64,000 nucleotides of DNA from Candidatus Baltobacteraceae bacterium. Its GTDB lineage: Bacteria; Vulcanimicrobiota; Vulcanimicrobiia; Vulcanimicrobiales; Vulcanimicrobiaceae. A model generated the notes under the pieces. That model saw only the letters and a program-made list of their open reading frames with translations, did not search any database and was not told where the DNA came from. Location: positions 1,364,001 through 1,428,000 of the forward strand of contig DASXEW010000003.1 of NCBI GenBank assembly GCA_036489885.1. Direction: 5' to 3'. How positions within the stretch are numbered: position 1 is the first letter of the stretch; the number at the start of each line of letters is the position of its first letter. Made by a program: the position numbers and the translations under genes. Shown one piece after another: positions 4,731-55,472 of the stretch.

Positions 4731-4846
4731 TTGTCATCCCGAGCGTAGCGCCGGAGGCGCGTAGTCGAGGGACCGCGGCAACGTTGATGATCGTGACGCT
4801 CCCTCGACTACGGCGCACTGCGTGCGCCTACGCTCGGGATGACAAT
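4731..4846. repeat. Palindromic REP-like element, copy A (full two-arm form)
   Basis: The left arm starts TTGTCATCCCGAGCGTAG and continues to GTAGTCGAGGGA. After a 35-base spacer the right arm returns as TCCCTCGACTAC and then CTACGCTCGGGATGACAA. The two arms can pair over most of their length, so the transcript would form a long hairpin. The element fills the gap between two convergent genes (cyclophilin and beta-lactamase-like), where it could act as a two-way terminator. Confidence 0.85.
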
Positions 4847-11744: not shown

Positions 11745-13490
11745 ATGTTGGCTGAAAACGAGCGCAGCGAACTACGCGACGGAATGAAGATCGATTGGGA
11801 CATCCCCATCGTGATGGACGACGGCGTCGTCTTACGCGCGGATCTGTTCCGACCGACCGAGGGACGTCACCCGGTCATCCTGAGCTACGGGCCATATGCG
11901 AAGGGCCTCTCGTTTAAGGAAGGCTACGTCTCAGCCTGGGAGCGACTGACCGGCGCGCATCCCGAAGTGCTCGCAAACTCGAGCGGGAAGTACATGAACT
12001 GGGAGGTCGTCGACCCCGAGCGTTGGGTCCCCGACGGCTACGCGTGCTTGCGTATCGATTCACGTGGTGCGGGTCGGTCGCCGGGTTATCTCGATCCTCG
12101 CTCCGCGCGCGAAATCGAAGACGTCTATCAAGCCATCGAATGGGCGGGCGTGCAGCCGTGGTCGAGCGGCAAAGTCGGGATGAACGGCATCTCGTACTAC
12201 GCAAGCAACCAGTGGCAAGTCGCCGCGAAGAATCCGCCGCACCTCGCAGCCTGCTGCGTATGGGAAGGCTCGTCGGACATCTATCGAGAGCAATCGCGGC
12301 ACGGCGGCATTCTGTGCACGTTCCGTCAGCATTGGTACGACATGCAAGTCAAGACCGTGCAGCACGGTCTCGGCGAACGGGGAGCGCGCAGTTCAATCAC
12401 GGGTGATCTGGTCTGCGGTCCAGAGACGTTGACCGACGAAGAGCTTGCGAAGAATCGCATCGACATTGGGCAAGCACACTACGAGCATCAGCTGATCGAC
12501 GAGTTCTATTCAAAGAGACAGGCCGATTTCTCGAAAATAACCGTGCCTTTGATGTCAGCCGGAAATTGGGGCGGTCACGGTTTGCATTTGCGTGGCAACG
12601 TCGAGGGCTTTCTGCAGATCGCATCCGAGCAGAAGTGGCTCGAGCTGCACGGTCTCGAGCATTGGACCGAGTTCTACACCGATTACGGTATCGATTTGCA
12701 GAAGCGGTTCTTTGCGCGCTTTCTCAAAGGCGACGACACGGCGTGGAAGGACGAGCCCCGCGTTCGCATGCAGGTTCGGCACCTCGACAAGTTTGTTGAG
12801 CGCGGTGAAAACGAGTGGCCGCTTGCGCGCACGCAGTGGACGAAATTCTATCTCGATCTGGATGCACGCACGCTTAGCCGCGAGCCGGTCGCAGACGCAA
12901 CGCTCACATATGAGGCCCTCGGCGCCGGCGTAACGTTCCTCTCGGAACCGCTGAGCGACGATACCGAGATCACCGGACCGACTGGACTCAAGCTGTTCTT
13001 GTCATCGTCAACGAACGACGCCGACGTCTTCGCGGTCCTGCGTGCGTTCTCGCCGAGCGGCGACGAAGTCGTCTTTCAAGGCGCAATCGATCCGCACACA
13101 CCGCTTGCGCAAGGCTGGCTGCGGGTTTCGCACCGCAAGCGCGATCCGCAGCATAGCACGCCGTATCGTCCTTGGCATCCCCATGACGCGTTGCGTCCGC
13201 TGCGTAACGGAGAGATCGCCGATCTCGACATCGAGATCTGGCCGACGTGCATCGTGTTGCCCCCGGGCTATCGCATCGGGCTATCGTTGCTCGGCAAAGA
13301 CTACGAGTATTCGGGAGTCAGCGGTGGCCGGCTCTCGAACTTCAAAAACGAGATGCGCGGTTCAGGACCGTTCCTCCACGACGATCCGCGCGATCGCGCA
13401 CCTGAGGTCTTTGGGGGAAAGACCACCCTTCACACGACAGCTGCTAATCCTTCATACGTTCTCTTACCGATCGTTCCGCCAAAGGAGTAG
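11745..13490 (+). CDS. CocE/NonD family hydrolase (X-Pro dipeptidyl-peptidase S15 type), paralogue 1
   Basis: This 581-residue hydrolase has an alpha/beta-hydrolase domain (VVLRADLFRPTEGRHPVILSYGPYAKG near residue 30, RIDSRGAGRSPGY, and the nucleophile region GMNGISYYAS near 150) and the C-terminal beta-sandwich domain seen in CocE and X-Pro dipeptidyl-peptidases (from about residue 390). Members hydrolyse esters or amides such as cocaine, acylated antibiotics or N-terminal X-Pro dipeptides. No signal peptide is present. A near twin is encoded at 15823-17568. Directly downstream, six bases away, is an amino-acid-type binding protein gene, which suggests the hydrolase acts on imported compounds. 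Confidence 0.88.
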   Translation: MLAENERSELRDGMKIDWDIPIVMDDGVVLRADLFRPTEGRHPVILSYGPYAKGLSFKEGYVSAWERLTGAHPEVLANSSGKYMNWEVVDPERWVPDGYACLRIDSRGAGRSPGYLDPRSAREIEDVYQAIEWAGVQPWSSGKVGMNGISYYASNQWQVAAKNPPHLAACCVWEGSSDIYREQSRHGGILCTFRQHWYDMQVKTVQHGLGERGARSSITGDLVCGPETLTDEELAKNRIDIGQAHYEHQLIDEFYSKRQADFSKITVPLMSAGNWGGHGLHLRGNVEGFLQIASEQKWLELHGLEHWTEFYTDYGIDLQKRFFARFLKGDDTAWKDEPRVRMQVRHLDKFVERGENEWPLARTQWTKFYLDLDARTLSREPVADATLTYEALGAGVTFLSEPLSDDTEITGPTGLKLFLSSSTNDADVFAVLRAFSPSGDEVVFQGAIDPHTPLAQGWLRVSHRKRDPQHSTPYRPWHPHDALRPLRNGEIADLDIEIWPTCIVLPPGYRIGLSLLGKDYEYSGVSGGRLSNFKNEMRGSGPFLHDDPRDRAPEVFGGKTTLHTTAANPSYVLLPIVPPKE

Positions 13491-15822: not shown

Positions 15823-17568
15823 GTGAAGCGCAATGTCGTCGCATCGGAAGTCGTACGCGCGCAATTCGACGTCCCCATCACCATGGAAGACGGAACCGTG
15901 GTGCGAGCCGACATTTTTCTTCCGCTCGAAGAGGGCAAGTATCCGGTCATCTTGAGCTATGGGCCGTACGCCAAGGGCTTGTTATTTCAAGAAGGTTACC
16001 CGGATCAGTGGAACCGGATGGTCGACAAACATCCGGACGTCGCTGCGAATTCGAGCAACCGCTATCAGAGTTGGGAAGTCGTCGATCCGGAGAAATGGTG
16101 TCCGGATGGTTACGCATGCGTGCGCGTCGATTCGCGCGGTGCGGGTTCCTCGCCCGGTTTCATCGAGCCGTGGTCGCCGCGCGAGACCAAAGATTTTGCG
16201 GCGTGCATCGAGTGGTCGGGCACACAGCCGTGGTCAAACGGGAAAGTCGGCCTGAACGGCATCTCGTACTACGCGATGAATCAGTGGATGGTCGCGACGC
16301 TCGAACAACCCAAACATCTTGCCGCGATGTGCGCGTGGGAAGGCGCATCGGATTTCTATCGTGAGTTTTCGTACCACGGCGGCATTCTCTCGACGTTCCT
16401 TGCCAATTGGTTCGACATGCAGGTCAAGACCGTGCAGTACGGACTTGGCGAAAACGGGGCGCGCAGTGCCGTCACCGGCAAGCCGGCTTGCGGCGATGTG
16501 ACGCTATCCGAAGCCGAGCTTGCAAAGAATCGCTGCGATCTCGGCGGCGACGTGCTTGCGCATCCGCTTGCCGACGACTATCACGAAGCGCGCACGCCGG
16601 TTTGGGAAAGGTTGAAAGTGCCGTTCCTATCGGCGGGCAATTGGGGCGGCCAAGGTTTACATCTGCGCGGGAACACGGAAGCGTTCGTGCGTGCGGCATC
16701 GGAACAGAAGTGGCTCGAGCTGCACGGCATCGAGCACTGGACGCATTTCTATACCGACTACGGCCGCATGCTTCAGAAGCGGTTCTTCGATTACTTCCTC
16801 AAAGGCGAGCAGAACGGTTGGGATCGGGAACGTCGCGTTCACCTCAACGTGCGTCACATCGACCATTTCGAAGGACGCTACGAAGACGAGTGGCCGATCG
16901 CGCGCACGCGCTGGACGAAGTTCTATCTCCATCCCGATGGCAGAACGCTGTCAAAGGACGCACCCAAAGCCGGCGGTGACATTTCGTACAGCGGATTCGG
17001 TGACGGCCTGACGTTCGTGACGGAACCGCTCAGCGAACCAATCGAAATCACCGGCCCGAGCGCCGCCAAGCTGTGGCTCTCTTCGTCGACGAAAGATGCC
17101 GACGTGTTCATCGTATTGCGCGCCTTCGCGCCGAGCGGTGAAGAAGTGGTCTTTCAAGGTGCAATCGATCCGCATGCACCGCTCTCGCAGGGCTGGCTGC
17201 GCTCGTCGCACCGCAAACTCGACCCCAAGCTCTCGCGCGAGTACCGTCCGTTTCATACCCACGAGAAAGAAGAGCCGCTCAAGCCGGGCGAACCGGTCGA
17301 GCTCGACGTCGAAGTGTGGCCGACGTCGATCGTGTTGCCGCGCGGTTATCGCATCGCGGTCAGCGTGCGCGGCAAAGATTACGTTTATCCCGGTGGAAGC
17401 GGCGGACGCATCAAGAGCTTCAAGAACGAACTCACCGGATGCGGACCGTTCATCCACGACGATCCGCGCAATCGCCCACCCGAAGTCTTCAACGGAAAGA
17501 ACACGGTGCACATAGCACCGGACAAACCAGCGTACATACTGCTTCCCGTCGTGCCTCCTGAGAAGTGA
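15823..17568 (+). CDS. CocE/NonD family hydrolase, paralogue 2
   Basis: This 581-residue hydrolase is the same length as the one at 11745-13490 and matches it over nearly the whole chain, including ILSYGPYAKGL, RVDSRGAGSSPGF, the nucleophile stretch GLNGISYYAMNQWM, GNWGGQGLHLRGN and the HWTHFYTDYG segment that should include the catalytic His. The C-terminal beta-sandwich ends with the same YILLPVVPP-type tail. The start GTG at 15823 lacks a strong ribosome site. The product is probably cytoplasmic. The pair probably arose by duplication and may act on related esters or amides. Confidence 0.87.
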   Translation: MKRNVVASEVVRAQFDVPITMEDGTVVRADIFLPLEEGKYPVILSYGPYAKGLLFQEGYPDQWNRMVDKHPDVAANSSNRYQSWEVVDPEKWCPDGYACVRVDSRGAGSSPGFIEPWSPRETKDFAACIEWSGTQPWSNGKVGLNGISYYAMNQWMVATLEQPKHLAAMCAWEGASDFYREFSYHGGILSTFLANWFDMQVKTVQYGLGENGARSAVTGKPACGDVTLSEAELAKNRCDLGGDVLAHPLADDYHEARTPVWERLKVPFLSAGNWGGQGLHLRGNTEAFVRAASEQKWLELHGIEHWTHFYTDYGRMLQKRFFDYFLKGEQNGWDRERRVHLNVRHIDHFEGRYEDEWPIARTRWTKFYLHPDGRTLSKDAPKAGGDISYSGFGDGLTFVTEPLSEPIEITGPSAAKLWLSSSTKDADVFIVLRAFAPSGEEVVFQGAIDPHAPLSQGWLRSSHRKLDPKLSREYRPFHTHEKEEPLKPGEPVELDVEVWPTSIVLPRGYRIAVSVRGKDYVYPGGSGGRIKSFKNELTGCGPFIHDDPRNRPPEVFNGKNTVHIAPDKPAYILLPVVPPEK

Positions 17569-19588: not shown

Positions 19589-19619
19589 ACAGCACAGGCC
19601 GCTCAGGCTTGCTCCCCAT

Positions 19620-19860
19620 TGTCATCCCGAGCGTAGCGCCGAAGGCGCGTAGTCGAGGGACCGCCTAAATCTTCAACCTTGTCGCGGTCCCTCGACTACG
19701 GCGCTGCGCACCTACGCTCGGGATGACAAGAGAGCGCCTACGCTCGGGATGACAAGAGAGCACCTACGCTCGGGATGACAAGAGAGCGCCTGCGCTCGGG
19801 ATGACAAGAGAGCACCCTACGCTCGGGATGACAAGAGAGCACCTGCGCTCGGGATGAAAA
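19620..19860. repeat. REP-like element, copy D, with a six-copy half-arm tandem array
   Basis: A full two-arm element (19621 to about 19731) has the same arms as copy A. Its right arm, TACGCTCGGGATGACAAGAG, is then repeated head to tail: CGCTCGGGATGA begins at 19715, 19741, 19767, 19793, 19820 and 19846, a period of 26 with one 27. The last copy has mutated to GATGAAAA. The first 138 bases match copy E (20190-20327) with two mismatches. The whole 359-base gap between the deacetylase and GIY-YIG genes contains nothing else apart from a short GC hairpin. Confidence 0.88.
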
Positions 19861-19899
19861 AGGGCTTGTTGCCAAGAGCGACTGCCGCGATGGAGCGGC

Positions 19900-20205
19900 A
19901 TGAAGACTTACTACGTCTACATGCTGCAGTGTTTTGACGGCACGTTCTACGTCGGCGTTTCGGGCGAGATCGAACGCCGGCTTTATCAACATCAGGAAGG
20001 TGCCTTCGAGACGTGCTACACGTTCATGCGACGGCCGTTGCGACTCGTCTATGTCGGCGAGTTCGAGTGGGTGAACGAAGCGATCGCTTTCGAGAAGAAA
20101 CTGAAGTCCTGGAGCCATAAGAAAAAGCGCGCCTTCGCCCAACGTGAGTGGGCGAACTTGACACGCTATAGTCGTGGCCCCGATCGCGTGTCATCCCGAG
20201 CGTAG
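19900..20205 (+). CDS. GIY-YIG nuclease family protein, flanked by repeats
   Basis: The 101-residue protein is a solitary GIY-YIG domain of the YhbQ/UPF0213 type. YYVYMLQCFDGTFYVGVSG holds the two signature strands, R26/R27 and H31 lie in ERRLYQHQEG, and E65 in AIAFEKKLKSW is the expected metal-binding Glu. The catalytic set therefore looks intact. A GGAG site precedes the ATG. The final residues VSSRA and the TAG stop are encoded by the left arm of repeat copy E. Near-identical repeats lie on both sides in the same orientation. I infer a possible role in spreading the repeat; a DNA-repair or housekeeping nuclease is the alternative. Confidence 0.9.
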   Translation: MKTYYVYMLQCFDGTFYVGVSGEIERRLYQHQEGAFETCYTFMRRPLRLVYVGEFEWVNEAIAFEKKLKSWSHKKKRAFAQREWANLTRYSRGPDRVSSRA

Positions 20206-20327
20206 CGCCGAAGGCGCGTAGTCGAGGGACCGCCTAAATCTTCAACCTTGTCGCTGTCCCTCGACTACGGCGCTGCGCGCCTACGCTCGGGATGACAAGA
20301 GAGCGCCTACGCTCGGGATGACAAGAG
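20190..20327. repeat. REP-like element, copy E
   Basis: A two-arm element with one extra right half-arm. Over 138 bases it differs from copy D at only two positions, including an identical spacer. It overlaps the last 16 bases of the GIY-YIG gene and fills the junction with the convergent secreted-protein gene. Confidence 0.87.
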
Positions 20328-32569: not shown

Positions 32570-32650
32570 GTTTACCGGGCGCACGTTCGATTTCCGGGAG
32601 CTGGCGATTTCGCGCAAAGGGCCGCCTCACGCGACGATTGCGCCTCCAAT

Positions 32651-32925
32651 GTCATCCTGAGCGTAGCGTTCTGCCGCTGTCATCCTGAGCGTAGCGTTCC
32701 GCAGCTGTCATCCTGAGCGTAGCGTTCTGCCGCTGTCATCCTGAGCGTAGCGTTCTGCCGCTGTCATCCTGAGCGTAGCGTTCTGCCGCTGTCATCCTGA
32801 GCGTAGCGTTCTGCCGCTGTCATCCTGAGCGTAGCGTTCCGCCGCTGTCATCCTGAGCGTAGCGTTCTGCCGCTGTCATCCTGAGCGTAGCGTTCCGCAG
32901 GAACGCGAAGTCGAAGGACGATCCC
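32651..32925. repeat. 28-base tandem array of the REP-like arm, copy F
   Basis: Nine head-to-tail copies of a 28-base unit beginning GTCATCCTGAGCGTAGCG start at 32651, 32679, 32707, 32735, 32763, 32791, 32819, 32847 and 32875. Units differ mainly at TTCTGCCGC versus TTCCGCAGC or TTCCGCCGC. The last unit runs on to a GAAGTCGAAGGAC end, as in copy C. There are no spacers between units. The gap from 32570 to 33100 has no credible gene: it holds 80 bases of unremarkable sequence, this array, about 90 bases of plain sequence, then copy G. Confidence 0.9.
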
Positions 32926-33018
32926 AAACGATGCGGGTTGCGCAACGATGTCAGAGGGTTGAGGACAGGATCGCGCCCGCGACCTTTCGAGATCGCTACG
33001 CGAGTGGGATGATTTCTG

Positions 33019-33092
33019 CGGTCCCTCGACTACGGCGCACTGCGTGCGCCTACGCTCGGGATGACAACGGGTGCGCCTACGCTCGGGATGAC
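33019..33092. repeat. REP-like right arm with one extra half-arm, copy G
   Basis: GGTCCCTCGACTACGGCGC followed by CCTACGCTCGGGATGACA, then a second GCCTACGCTCGGGATGACA. It is the right-hand half of the element seen at copy A. Together with the array F it may represent the two ends of one expanded element. It lies at the convergent junction of the alcohol dehydrogenase and VOC genes. Confidence 0.8.
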
Positions 33093-33100
33093 ACGAAGGA

Positions 33101-38913: not shown

Positions 38914-39040
38914 TTGTCATCCCGAGCGTAGAGGAGCGAGCGAAGCGAGCGCAGCGTAGTCGAGGGACAGGGCGGCGGTGGCAAGGTTGTCGCGATCCCT
39001 CGACTACACGCCCTGCGGGCGCTACGCTCGGGATGACAAA
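38914..39040. repeat. REP-like element, copy H, inside the exporter gene cluster
   Basis: The left arm TTGTCATCCCGAGCGTAG is followed by an expanded AGGAGCGAGCGAAGCGAGCG segment, GTAGTCGAGGGA, a 36-base spacer, TCCCTCGACTAC and CTACGCTCGGGATGACAA. It fills the 141-base gap between two permease genes on the same strand, the only full two-arm copy in the window that is not at or near a convergent junction. Confidence 0.85.
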
Positions 39041-50156: not shown

Positions 50157-51986
50157 ATGACCTCTTCGATGCGTGCTTCACTAGCGGCCTTAGTCGGCAT
50201 GGCCCTCCTACTCCCGGCCTGCGGCGGTGGTGGCGGGTCCAGCCCTGGCGGCGGCGGCAATCCGACGCCGACCCCGACCGGAGTCGTGTCTGATTTCACC
50301 TGTCCGACGGGCGACGGCAGCAGCTCGGTCGCGCGCAGCGGCGGAGTATCCGGAGCCGAAGCAACGCGTCACGCGATCGTCCGCGCGCCCAAACAAACAC
50401 TTACCTCGGTCAGCCGAATCGCCGTCGTCTACGATCGCAGTGCGCTCTCGCGTTCGGCCGCGGCGTTTACGCGTGCGGAGACCAGTGCCGGATCAACACT
50501 CGCGCAGACATTCGACTATCCGACGCTCGGCAAGACGATTCACATCCTCACGGTTGCGCCCTCGCAGTCGCTCGCGGCGATGACGACACTGCGCGCTCAA
50601 GCCGGAGTACTCAGCGTAACGCCGGCCGGTCTGAAGCGCTACAGCCTCACGTCGACGCCACTCATGGCGAGCAATAATTACTTCCCGGGCTTCACCGGCA
50701 CGACCGCGCCTTTCTACGAGGCGGCGGCTCTTCCGGGTCAGTGGGACATGCACGCGATTCGTCTTGAATATGCGTTCGGATATTCGCAAGCCGCCGGCAA
50801 TACCGCGCCCGGCGGCGCCAACGCAAACGCACTGGGTACGCACAGCGCCAAGCTCGCGGTGATCGATACGGGCCAAGATACGCTGCATCCGGATCTTGCC
50901 GGCAACATCGTGTATCAGAAGTGCTTCATAACGAACGAAGCGGGGACGGCGCAATCCACGTCCACGTTCTCGACGGATCCGCAAGGACACGGCACCGACG
51001 TCACCGGTATCGCCGCTGCGGTTACGAACCCATCGGGTTCGCATCCGAACGATCTCGGATTCGCGGGTGCGGGCGGAAACGTCGGAATCATGGCGTACCG
51101 CGTTTTCCCGACGCCGGATGACAACTGTGGCAATCCGAATTCAAACGATGACGTCTGCGGTGCTTCGACCGCCGACATTGCATCTGCGATCGATGACGCC
51201 GTCACGAACGGCGCGAGCGTCATCTCGATGAGCATCGGCGGCCCCGGTTGCACGACGCCGGGCATCGATCCGGATCCGACGGAGGGTGCGGCGGTCGCAA
51301 ATGCCATCGCGCACAACGTTATCGTCGTTGCTGCAGCGGGCAACGAAAGCACGAGCACGAGCAGCAAACAGCCTATCGACGCGCCCGGGTGCGACACGGG
51401 CGTGATTGCGGTCGGTGCGACGTCGCTCGACGACGGCACGCCGAACGGTTCGAGCGCCGCCGGCGGAAACGCGCATCCGGCCGGTACGTCATTAGCGCCG
51501 CAAGAGTACGTTGCCTATTACAGCAACGCCGGTTCGACCAATACGCTCAACAGTTCCGCATCATGGGGAATCGTCGCGCCCGGCGGCGATCCGGATTGCC
51601 CAACGGCCAATTGCGGCGACAACGACGATCTTCACTGGATCGAGAATATCTGGACGTCGACGCCGTACATGGCGAACTCGCAAGACCAAACGTTCGCAGG
51701 CGAATGCACCGACGATTACCCGAATTCGACCCTGACGTTTGCACCCGTCGACTGCCGTACGCTGATCGCAGGAACCTCGCAGGCTACGCCGCACGTAGCT
51801 GGCGTGGCAGCCCTGATCTGCGGACTCAATCCCGCCGATTGCAATCCGACGACGATGAAAAATCTGTTGTGCACGACGGCAGATACGATCAGTGACGCCA
51901 ATCAAGGATGTGGCCGCCTCGATGCGTACACCGCGGTGGCGACGGCGCTGAGCGATCCGACTCCGCCCGGCCCGTTCACACAGTGA
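50157..51986 (+). CDS. Subtilisin-like (S8) serine peptidase lipoprotein, paralogue 1
   Basis: From ATG 50157 the protein has 609 residues. The signal peptide ends in a lipobox, LLPAC, followed by a Gly/Ser/Pro/Thr linker, so the enzyme is an outer-surface or periplasmic lipoprotein. A propeptide-like region (about 60-190) precedes the S8 domain. The triad is Asp in LAVIDTGQDT, His in GHGTDVTGIAA and Ser in AGTSQATPHVAG; the oxyanion Asn is in VAAAGNES. Several Cys may form disulfides. Its stop overlaps the thiolase start. It is clearly paralogous to 53217-55472. An ATG at 50079 would add 26 residues that do not look like a leader. Confidence 0.87.
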   Translation: MTSSMRASLAALVGMALLLPACGGGGGSSPGGGGNPTPTPTGVVSDFTCPTGDGSSSVARSGGVSGAEATRHAIVRAPKQTLTSVSRIAVVYDRSALSRSAAAFTRAETSAGSTLAQTFDYPTLGKTIHILTVAPSQSLAAMTTLRAQAGVLSVTPAGLKRYSLTSTPLMASNNYFPGFTGTTAPFYEAAALPGQWDMHAIRLEYAFGYSQAAGNTAPGGANANALGTHSAKLAVIDTGQDTLHPDLAGNIVYQKCFITNEAGTAQSTSTFSTDPQGHGTDVTGIAAAVTNPSGSHPNDLGFAGAGGNVGIMAYRVFPTPDDNCGNPNSNDDVCGASTADIASAIDDAVTNGASVISMSIGGPGCTTPGIDPDPTEGAAVANAIAHNVIVVAAAGNESTSTSSKQPIDAPGCDTGVIAVGATSLDDGTPNGSSAAGGNAHPAGTSLAPQEYVAYYSNAGSTNTLNSSASWGIVAPGGDPDCPTANCGDNDDLHWIENIWTSTPYMANSQDQTFAGECTDDYPNSTLTFAPVDCRTLIAGTSQATPHVAGVAALICGLNPADCNPTTMKNLLCTTADTISDANQGCGRLDAYTAVATALSDPTPPGPFTQ

Positions 51987-53216: not shown

Positions 53217-55472
<2,256 letters not shown>

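Follow-up and report, generated by a model that had tools for sequence, protein, structure and literature searches.

What moves the tagged palindromic repeats of this genome, and is it the small GIY-YIG nuclease whose gene lies between two nearly identical copies of them? The window analyzed here is the whole 64,000-nucleotide stretch at C3:1364001-1428000 of a 3.48 Mb genome in 4 contigs. A preliminary description had put the nuclease forward as candidate mobilizer of a REP-like family, distinct from RAYT systems; as a candidate it is supported by the comparisons below, and no experiment demonstrates mobilization. The pairing of this GIY-YIG family with REPs is strongly supported. We estimate a probability of roughly two in three (0.68) that the repeats form a mobile system of the REP/REPIN type whose dedicated enzyme is a small GIY-YIG nuclease and not a RAYT (HUH) transposase. 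The mobilizer role is the best explanation we have but is unproven, with mobilization inferred from sequence in the absence of cleavage, binding or transposition data.

A GIY-YIG gene between two nearly identical REP pairs

A repeat search of the window returned two direct copies, D (19620-19758) and E (20189-20327), that are 99% identical over 139 nt, spacer included, and inspection of the sequence located their two mismatches, G/T in the spacer-side GCGGTCC and A/G in GCGCACC. The initial picture of near-identical elements in the same orientation boxing a single GIY-YIG gene, with a stop codon supplied by E, was thus confirmed. D and E are each built as an inverted pair of units beginning TGTCATCCC, which are separated by a spacer of about 19 nt and have their TGTC tags outermost; the inverted arms of D (19619-19664 and 19684-19729) are 85% complementary. 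The relevant features of the window are the following.

4732..4845, strand not assigned: diverged REP pair of the same family, 83% identical to D
19620..19728, strand not assigned: core of repeat D, a REP pair (REPIN-like) with TGTC tags outward, recognized by its inverted arms and genome match; left unit 19620-19664, spacer about 19665-19684, right unit about 19685-19728
19708..19857, strand not assigned: tandem array directly after D, 5.7 copies of a 26-bp unit that is the REP tag end (GCACCTACGCTCGGGATGACAAGAGA)
19900..20205, plus strand: GIY-YIG nuclease gene, 101 aa, catalytic residues intact, stop codon from E
20189..20297, strand not assigned: core of repeat E, the second REP pair, with two differences from D, followed by one more tag-end unit to about 20327
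32650..32895, strand not assigned: array, 8.8 copies of the 28-bp REP-derived unit TGTCATCCTGAGCGTAGCGTTCTGCCGC, the family's tag end
33008..33096, minus strand: REP right arm and an extra tag-end unit, forming a further inverted set with the 32650..32895 array to its left
38917..39036, strand not assigned: further REP pair with tags outward at 38917 (plus) and 39036 (minus), genome position C3:1402913-1403038

Genome-wide, the best match of D is E and vice versa (98% over 112 nt), the next best reaching 83%, in keeping with the first description of the other copies as more diverged. Used as a genome query, D gave 87 matches, several of them in pairs, and among the dozens of units related to D and E that the genome holds, these two are the most alike. 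Their near identity indicates, as far as sequence alone can, that they were recently duplicated together or made alike by gene conversion. We counted 29 copies of the motif TCATCCCGAGCGNAG in the window at no more than two mismatches (1.1 expected), and 165 genomic copies of TCATCCYGAGCG compared to 0 for its reversed control; together with the boxing controls described below, these counts exclude chance as the source of the repeats and of the boxing.

Tag-end arrays like that at 32650-32895 also flank GIY-YIG genes of relatives (L038, L042, L082). Elsewhere, the window holds paralogous 581-aa hydrolase-like genes at 11745-13490 and 15823-17568 (about 4.1 kb apart, 71-81% DNA identity in blocks) and paralogous coding stretches at 50295-51967 and 53817-55468 (about 3.5 kb apart, 73-84% DNA identity in blocks).

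The 101-aa protein is a GIY-YIG domain (Pfam PF01541, E=1e-16), and the active site that had looked intact proved to be so on comparison, with Y7, Y17, R27, H31 and E65 all conserved among relatives, one of which comes from a Candidatus Eremiobacterota bin. Its final codons, GTG TCA TCC CGA GCG TAG (V-S-S-R-A-stop), come from the left arm of E. The fold closest to its AlphaFold2 model (pLDDT 82) is UPF0213 (E=6e-6), followed by Slx1 and the UvrC GIY-YIG domain, and the only sequence relative of known structure is UPF0213 (1zg2, E=5e-11). NCBIfam profiles matched only below cut-off, with a group I intron endonuclease, and PADLOC returned nothing, so an anti-phage defense role was dropped.

In a folding check, the first stem pair of D and E was A/C, and a single REP unit of the window, folded as DNA, did no better than shuffled sequences; the argument for a conserved hairpin therefore rests on comparison across genomes. 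Matches to the Rfam microRNA families MIR8788, mir-789 and mir-314 at 19607-20307 fell far below gathering scores and were rejected as artefacts of the long hairpin, of a kind that any palindrome would produce.

REPs box the nuclease family in about ten phyla

Loci of the nuclease family were drawn from the bacterial family of the window's genome (hereafter the host family), named genomes of other phyla, genomes reached through these, 99 Bacteroidota and plasmid records. A gene was scored as boxed when its 350-bp flanks gave an inverted-repeat score of at least 16 with each other or when tagged repeats stood on both sides. Flanks were taken from the end of the conserved match (45/67) because measuring from the end of the ORF (38/68) loses repeats that overlap the 3' end of the gene.

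We found that 60/67 loci were boxed across about ten phyla, compared to 2/16 distant GIY-YIG genes from the same phylum and the same genome and 55/607 (9%) displaced gene-sized positions in the same loci, which bears out the expectation that such genes sit between repeats more often than chance would place them. An inverted-repeat score of at least 16 never arose with shuffled flanks and arose in 4.6% of mismatched flank pairs. A second sample, taken from Pseudomonadota and not used in setting the criterion, gave 25/28 boxed loci. GIY-YIG genes without flanking repeats had been named as evidence that would refute the idea; the three others in this genome do lack them but are of distant types, and only a few members of the family itself (L144, L135, L216) are unboxed.

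REPs with outward tags stood on both sides of 50/67 family loci and of 0/16 distant GIY-YIG genes, and the tag of the REP nearest the gene pointed outward in 90/121 flanks and inward in 31. The REPs on the two sides are usually complete and outward, as opposed to the halves of a single divided REP, and the tag-to-tag length of the unit has a median of 427 bp. A typical unit therefore has REPIN geometry, with the gene occupying the spacer (REP - gene - REP). This refines the arrangement first proposed, in which palindromic elements boxed the gene.

The hosts include members of Eremiobacterota, Bacteroidota, Pseudomonadota, Planctomycetota, Chloroflexota, Patescibacteria, Ignavibacteriota, Bipolaricaulota and Cyanobacteriota, with one further Bacillota bin that is possibly mis-binned. 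The flanking palindromes are (C/T)GTCA-tagged in nearly all loci and vary in sequence from genome to genome: examples are TGTCATTCCCGCGAAGGCGGGAATCCA in Acetothermia, CGTCATCCTCGGGCTTGACCCGAGGATCCA in Rhizobiaceae, the dRS3 type in Neisseria gonorrhoeae, TGTCATCCTGAATTTATTTCAGGATCT in Bacteroidales and TGTCATTCTGAGCGAAGCGAAGAATCT in another family of the window's phylum.

REP class follows the nuclease

The repeats of the window are TGTC-tagged palindromes of the described CGTC REP superfamily, which includes neisserial dRS3 and Rickettsia RPE-4/RPE-6 and whose members "apparently lack a dedicated transposase" (Di Nocera et al., 2013, PMC3733652). They meet its criteria of an unpaired terminal tag and of many, mostly intergenic copies, often as inverted pairs; the stem criterion (8-9 bp starting AT, a loop of 4-5 nt and a CCA tail) is met by the plain-palindrome class, for instance by TGTCATTCCCGCGAAGGCGGGAATCCA cited above. 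The suggestion of a distinct type of system thus survives with respect to its partner, a GIY-YIG protein and not a RAYT, and needs refining with respect to the repeats, which already have a superfamily.

The window's class has a 5-bp outer stem, a tandem GA/GA mismatch and a longer inner helix, and the GAG class as a whole takes the form GTC - ANNNN - GA - G...C - GA - stem complement. Its 14 different 5-bp stems are all complementary, and GA lies opposite GA in 69/82 units (24/27 loci). Such compensatory change around a conserved tandem mismatch indicates that the hairpin is the conserved object. A class with this mismatch and freely covarying outer stems was not separated in the 2013 CGTC classification.

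Nucleases of the 'RRP' mid-domain type occurred with GAG-class REPs in 24/25 cases and those of the 'KYN' type with plain palindromes in 29/39 (p=1.3e-8), and Bacteroidota taken by themselves showed the match too (p between 0.0002 and 0.0014, a range due to one locus). On a maximum-likelihood tree of the nucleases, REP class required 7 changes versus 22 in shuffles, and one 100/100 clade joined Eremiobacterota and Bacteroidota nucleases with GAG-class REPs, a single row without a recognized REP being the exception. REP class thus follows the nuclease and not the host phylum. On balance we lean towards the wider proposition that a nuclease of about 100 residues is the missing mobilizer of the CGTC REP superfamily in about ten phyla, each REP class co-evolving with its nuclease, and that a hydrolytic hairpin nuclease and host repair do the work without an HUH, DDE or recombinase enzyme.

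REP copy number and gene presence

We counted TGTCAYSCYGAG in 60 relatives alongside a reversed control. In the host family, where the gene is patchy (15/37 genomes), genomes with the gene held a median of 109 REP copies (n=15) compared to 2.5 in those without it (n=22, p=1.8e-6); among genomes at least 90% complete, 12/12 with the gene and 2/16 without it reached at least 20 copies (p=3e-6). The link is weaker in Pseudomonadota. Across 200 genomes, counted with another motif, at least 10 copies were present in 12/42 with the gene and 13/158 without it (p=0.001), and at a threshold of at least 50 copies we saw no significant excess in genomes with the gene. Of the 13 REP-rich Pseudomonadota lacking an intact gene, two hold a broken GIY-YIG gene between REPs, including the richest of all (595 copies), and the other 11 have no clear family member; those 11 genomes may be incomplete, may have lost the gene or may use another enzyme. 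Repeats without a GIY-YIG homolog were to have counted against the proposal, and the outcome is mixed: the host family behaves as the proposal requires, whereas REP-rich Pseudomonadota without the gene do exist.

These Pseudomonadota are also what remains in favor of the possibility that the REPs are moved in trans by a RAYT/Y1 or other transposase and that the GIY-YIG gene lies among them by chance. We consider this reading close to refuted. A Y1_Tnp (RAYT) gene was detected neither in the window's genome nor in the 15 host-family genomes that carry the nuclease gene, so the better-matching RAYT that would have overturned the original suggestion did not appear there, and relatives rich in Y1 (G057, G027) lack these REPs. 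Boxing far exceeds its controls, and the 2013 survey likewise found no transposase flanked by CGTC REPs (PMC3733652).

Filled and empty sites, copies and decay

Comparison of empty and filled sites, proposed at the outset as a check, succeeded in three genera and failed for the window's own site. Azospirillum lipoferum carries the unit in the gap between sufB and sufC; in A. ramasamyi, A. oryzae and strain B510 these two genes are neighbors with no unit between them. One site on Sphingobium megaplasmids is filled in some, holds a solo REP palindrome in two and has no REP in two, and ordinary Sphingobium REP pairs have the same inner extension as the gene-bearing unit. In Sinorhizobium, S. meliloti Ak57 has the gene at a site where strain K101 has REPs and no gene. 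At the window's site, the upstream deacetylase gene had no match at E <= 1e-60 in 22 other genomes of the host family and a strong one in a related family of the same order; without synteny in relatives, no empty site could be identified. No target-site duplication, insertion target or precise junction could be defined at the sites compared, including aligned colinear stretches of the Sphingobium megaplasmids, because these intergenic sites have diverged too far.

The unit also occurs in several copies and in states of decay. In the Acetothermia bin G071 a boxed unit is present on several contigs (L177, L178, L179) at 97-98% identity, some copies being broken by stops. One Bacteroidota locus (L171, G138:C86:44300-47000) has three tandem REP - GIY-YIG - REP units, partly decayed, with a period of about 420 bp, and another Bacteroidota genome has two near-identical genes 6.4 kb apart.

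Several observations stand beside these. Among the Acetothermia copies, identity continues for about 50 bp past the REPs and reaches an outer inverted repeat (TCTCCAA...GTTGCA), which could mean that the unit rides in, or forms, a larger MITE-like element. On pSymB of S. meliloti Ak57 a truncated second GIY-YIG gene with REPs of its own lies directly upstream of the intact gene (L147, about 2050-2300). Family members number 20 in one Bacteroidota genome (G125) and 13 in a 0.8 Mb Patescibacteria genome (G069), where the copies, partial ones included, share about 67-72% DNA identity.

Such sites can be read in another way, with the GIY-YIG gene as a homing-like parasite that lands in existing REPs while the REPs spread by other means. 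Free-standing GIY-YIG homing nucleases exist, and some insertion sequences target REPs. A single Sphingobium site seen with a solo REP, with REP-gene-REP or with no REP, and the two Sinorhizobium strains that both have REPs at a site and differ in the gene, are what this reading would predict. Such a parasite would need genomes rich in REPs; alone, however, this reading leaves unexplained why REP-rich genomes of the host family nearly always have the gene and gene-less ones are almost REP-free, and why REP class follows the nuclease tree across phyla; the flanks, moreover, are usually complete outward REPs where insertion into a REP would leave halves. We regard it as unlikely, though it deserves to be kept in mind.

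A host function is less probable still. The nuclease might act on REP hairpins, whether cruciforms or REP transcripts, or be autoregulated by its flanking REPs, without mobilizing anything, and both the stop codon that the window's gene takes from a REP and the resemblance of its fold to Slx1, a branched-DNA nuclease, would suit such a role. Against this, the genes are patchy even within the host family and often multi-copy, tandem or broken, and they are present or absent at one site between related strains, as expected of selfish DNA and not of housekeeping genes.

A proposed mechanism for GIY-YIG-dependent mobilization

If the nuclease is the mobilizer, the element would be REP - gene - REP, its two outward-facing tags (T/C-GTC) lying about 430 bp apart, and the scattered REPs and gene-less REP pairs would be its non-autonomous derivatives. 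The nuclease may recognize the tag and hairpin, extruded or single-stranded at the replication fork, which would be in line with the resemblance of its fold to Slx1, and may cut at or near the tag. Host repair or ligation would then bring the element, a REP pair with or without the gene, to a new position, either by copying it or by moving it. We infer this last step because GIY-YIG chemistry is hydrolytic and, to our knowledge, no member of the superfamily forms a covalent protein-DNA link. The tag-end arrays beside D and at 32650-32895 would fit repeated cutting and repair at the tag, although this is a guess.

Comparison with known systems

CGTC REPs, a group to which dRS3 and the alphaproteobacterial palindromes belong, rank with the common short repeats of bacterial genomes. 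What mobilizes them was left open by the survey in which they were defined (PMC3733652); the pairing described here names an enzyme and its cognate DNA substrates. If the mobilizer role is correct, it would define a type of mobile element driven by a class of enzyme that has no known part in moving bacterial repeats, and would account for a large number of small genes that carry no annotation beyond 'GIY-YIG nuclease family protein'. We found no paper linking CGTC REPs to GIY-YIG proteins in the open-access literature (subscription papers and some preprints were outside the scope of the search), and the 2025 RepRanger paper makes no mention of GIY-YIG or nucleases.

The likeness to the CGTC superfamily extends to the CGTC/TGTC tag at one end, the palindromic stem starting A(T), the frequent CCA tail and the paired units, and to the bacteria concerned (S. 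meliloti, Azospirillum lipoferum, Neisseria and Planctomycetes). The present system differs in that the survey names no enzyme, whereas a GIY-YIG gene lies between such REPs here, and in that the window's units are of a class that is longer, retains an internal tandem GA/GA mismatch and is common in Eremiobacterota and Bacteroidota. The element has inverted ends, as insertion sequences and MITEs do, but the target-site duplication that would complete the comparison could not be defined.

Small GIY-YIG proteins of the UPF0213/YhbQ group (PDB 1zg2, 1ywl) resemble the nuclease in sequence and fold, and Slx1, which works with a partner in eukaryotes, resembles it in fold; in contrast to the family studied here, REPs box hardly any of the distant small GIY-YIG genes tested (2/16). 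GIY-YIG homing endonucleases of the I-TevI and I-BmoI type and free-standing ones have the same catalytic domain with an intact active site, in genes that behave selfishly. The window's type, however, has about 100 aa and no separate DNA-binding domain, is intergenic and bounded by REPs and not in an intron or intein, and has hundreds of gene-less relatives of its boundary sequences in the genome. Filled and empty sites of the unit exist, but their junctions are too imprecise to show insertion at a target cut, as a homing gene would have.

The closest parallel in organization is with the RAYT, REPtron and REPIN systems. There, a GTAG tag goes with a Y1 HUH transposase; here, a T/CGTC tag goes with a GIY-YIG nuclease, an enzyme type whose chemistry, as far as known, passes through no covalent intermediate. 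Both nevertheless consist of a single gene flanked by inverted REPs, with gene-less REP pairs as non-autonomous copies and a copy number that tracks the gene.
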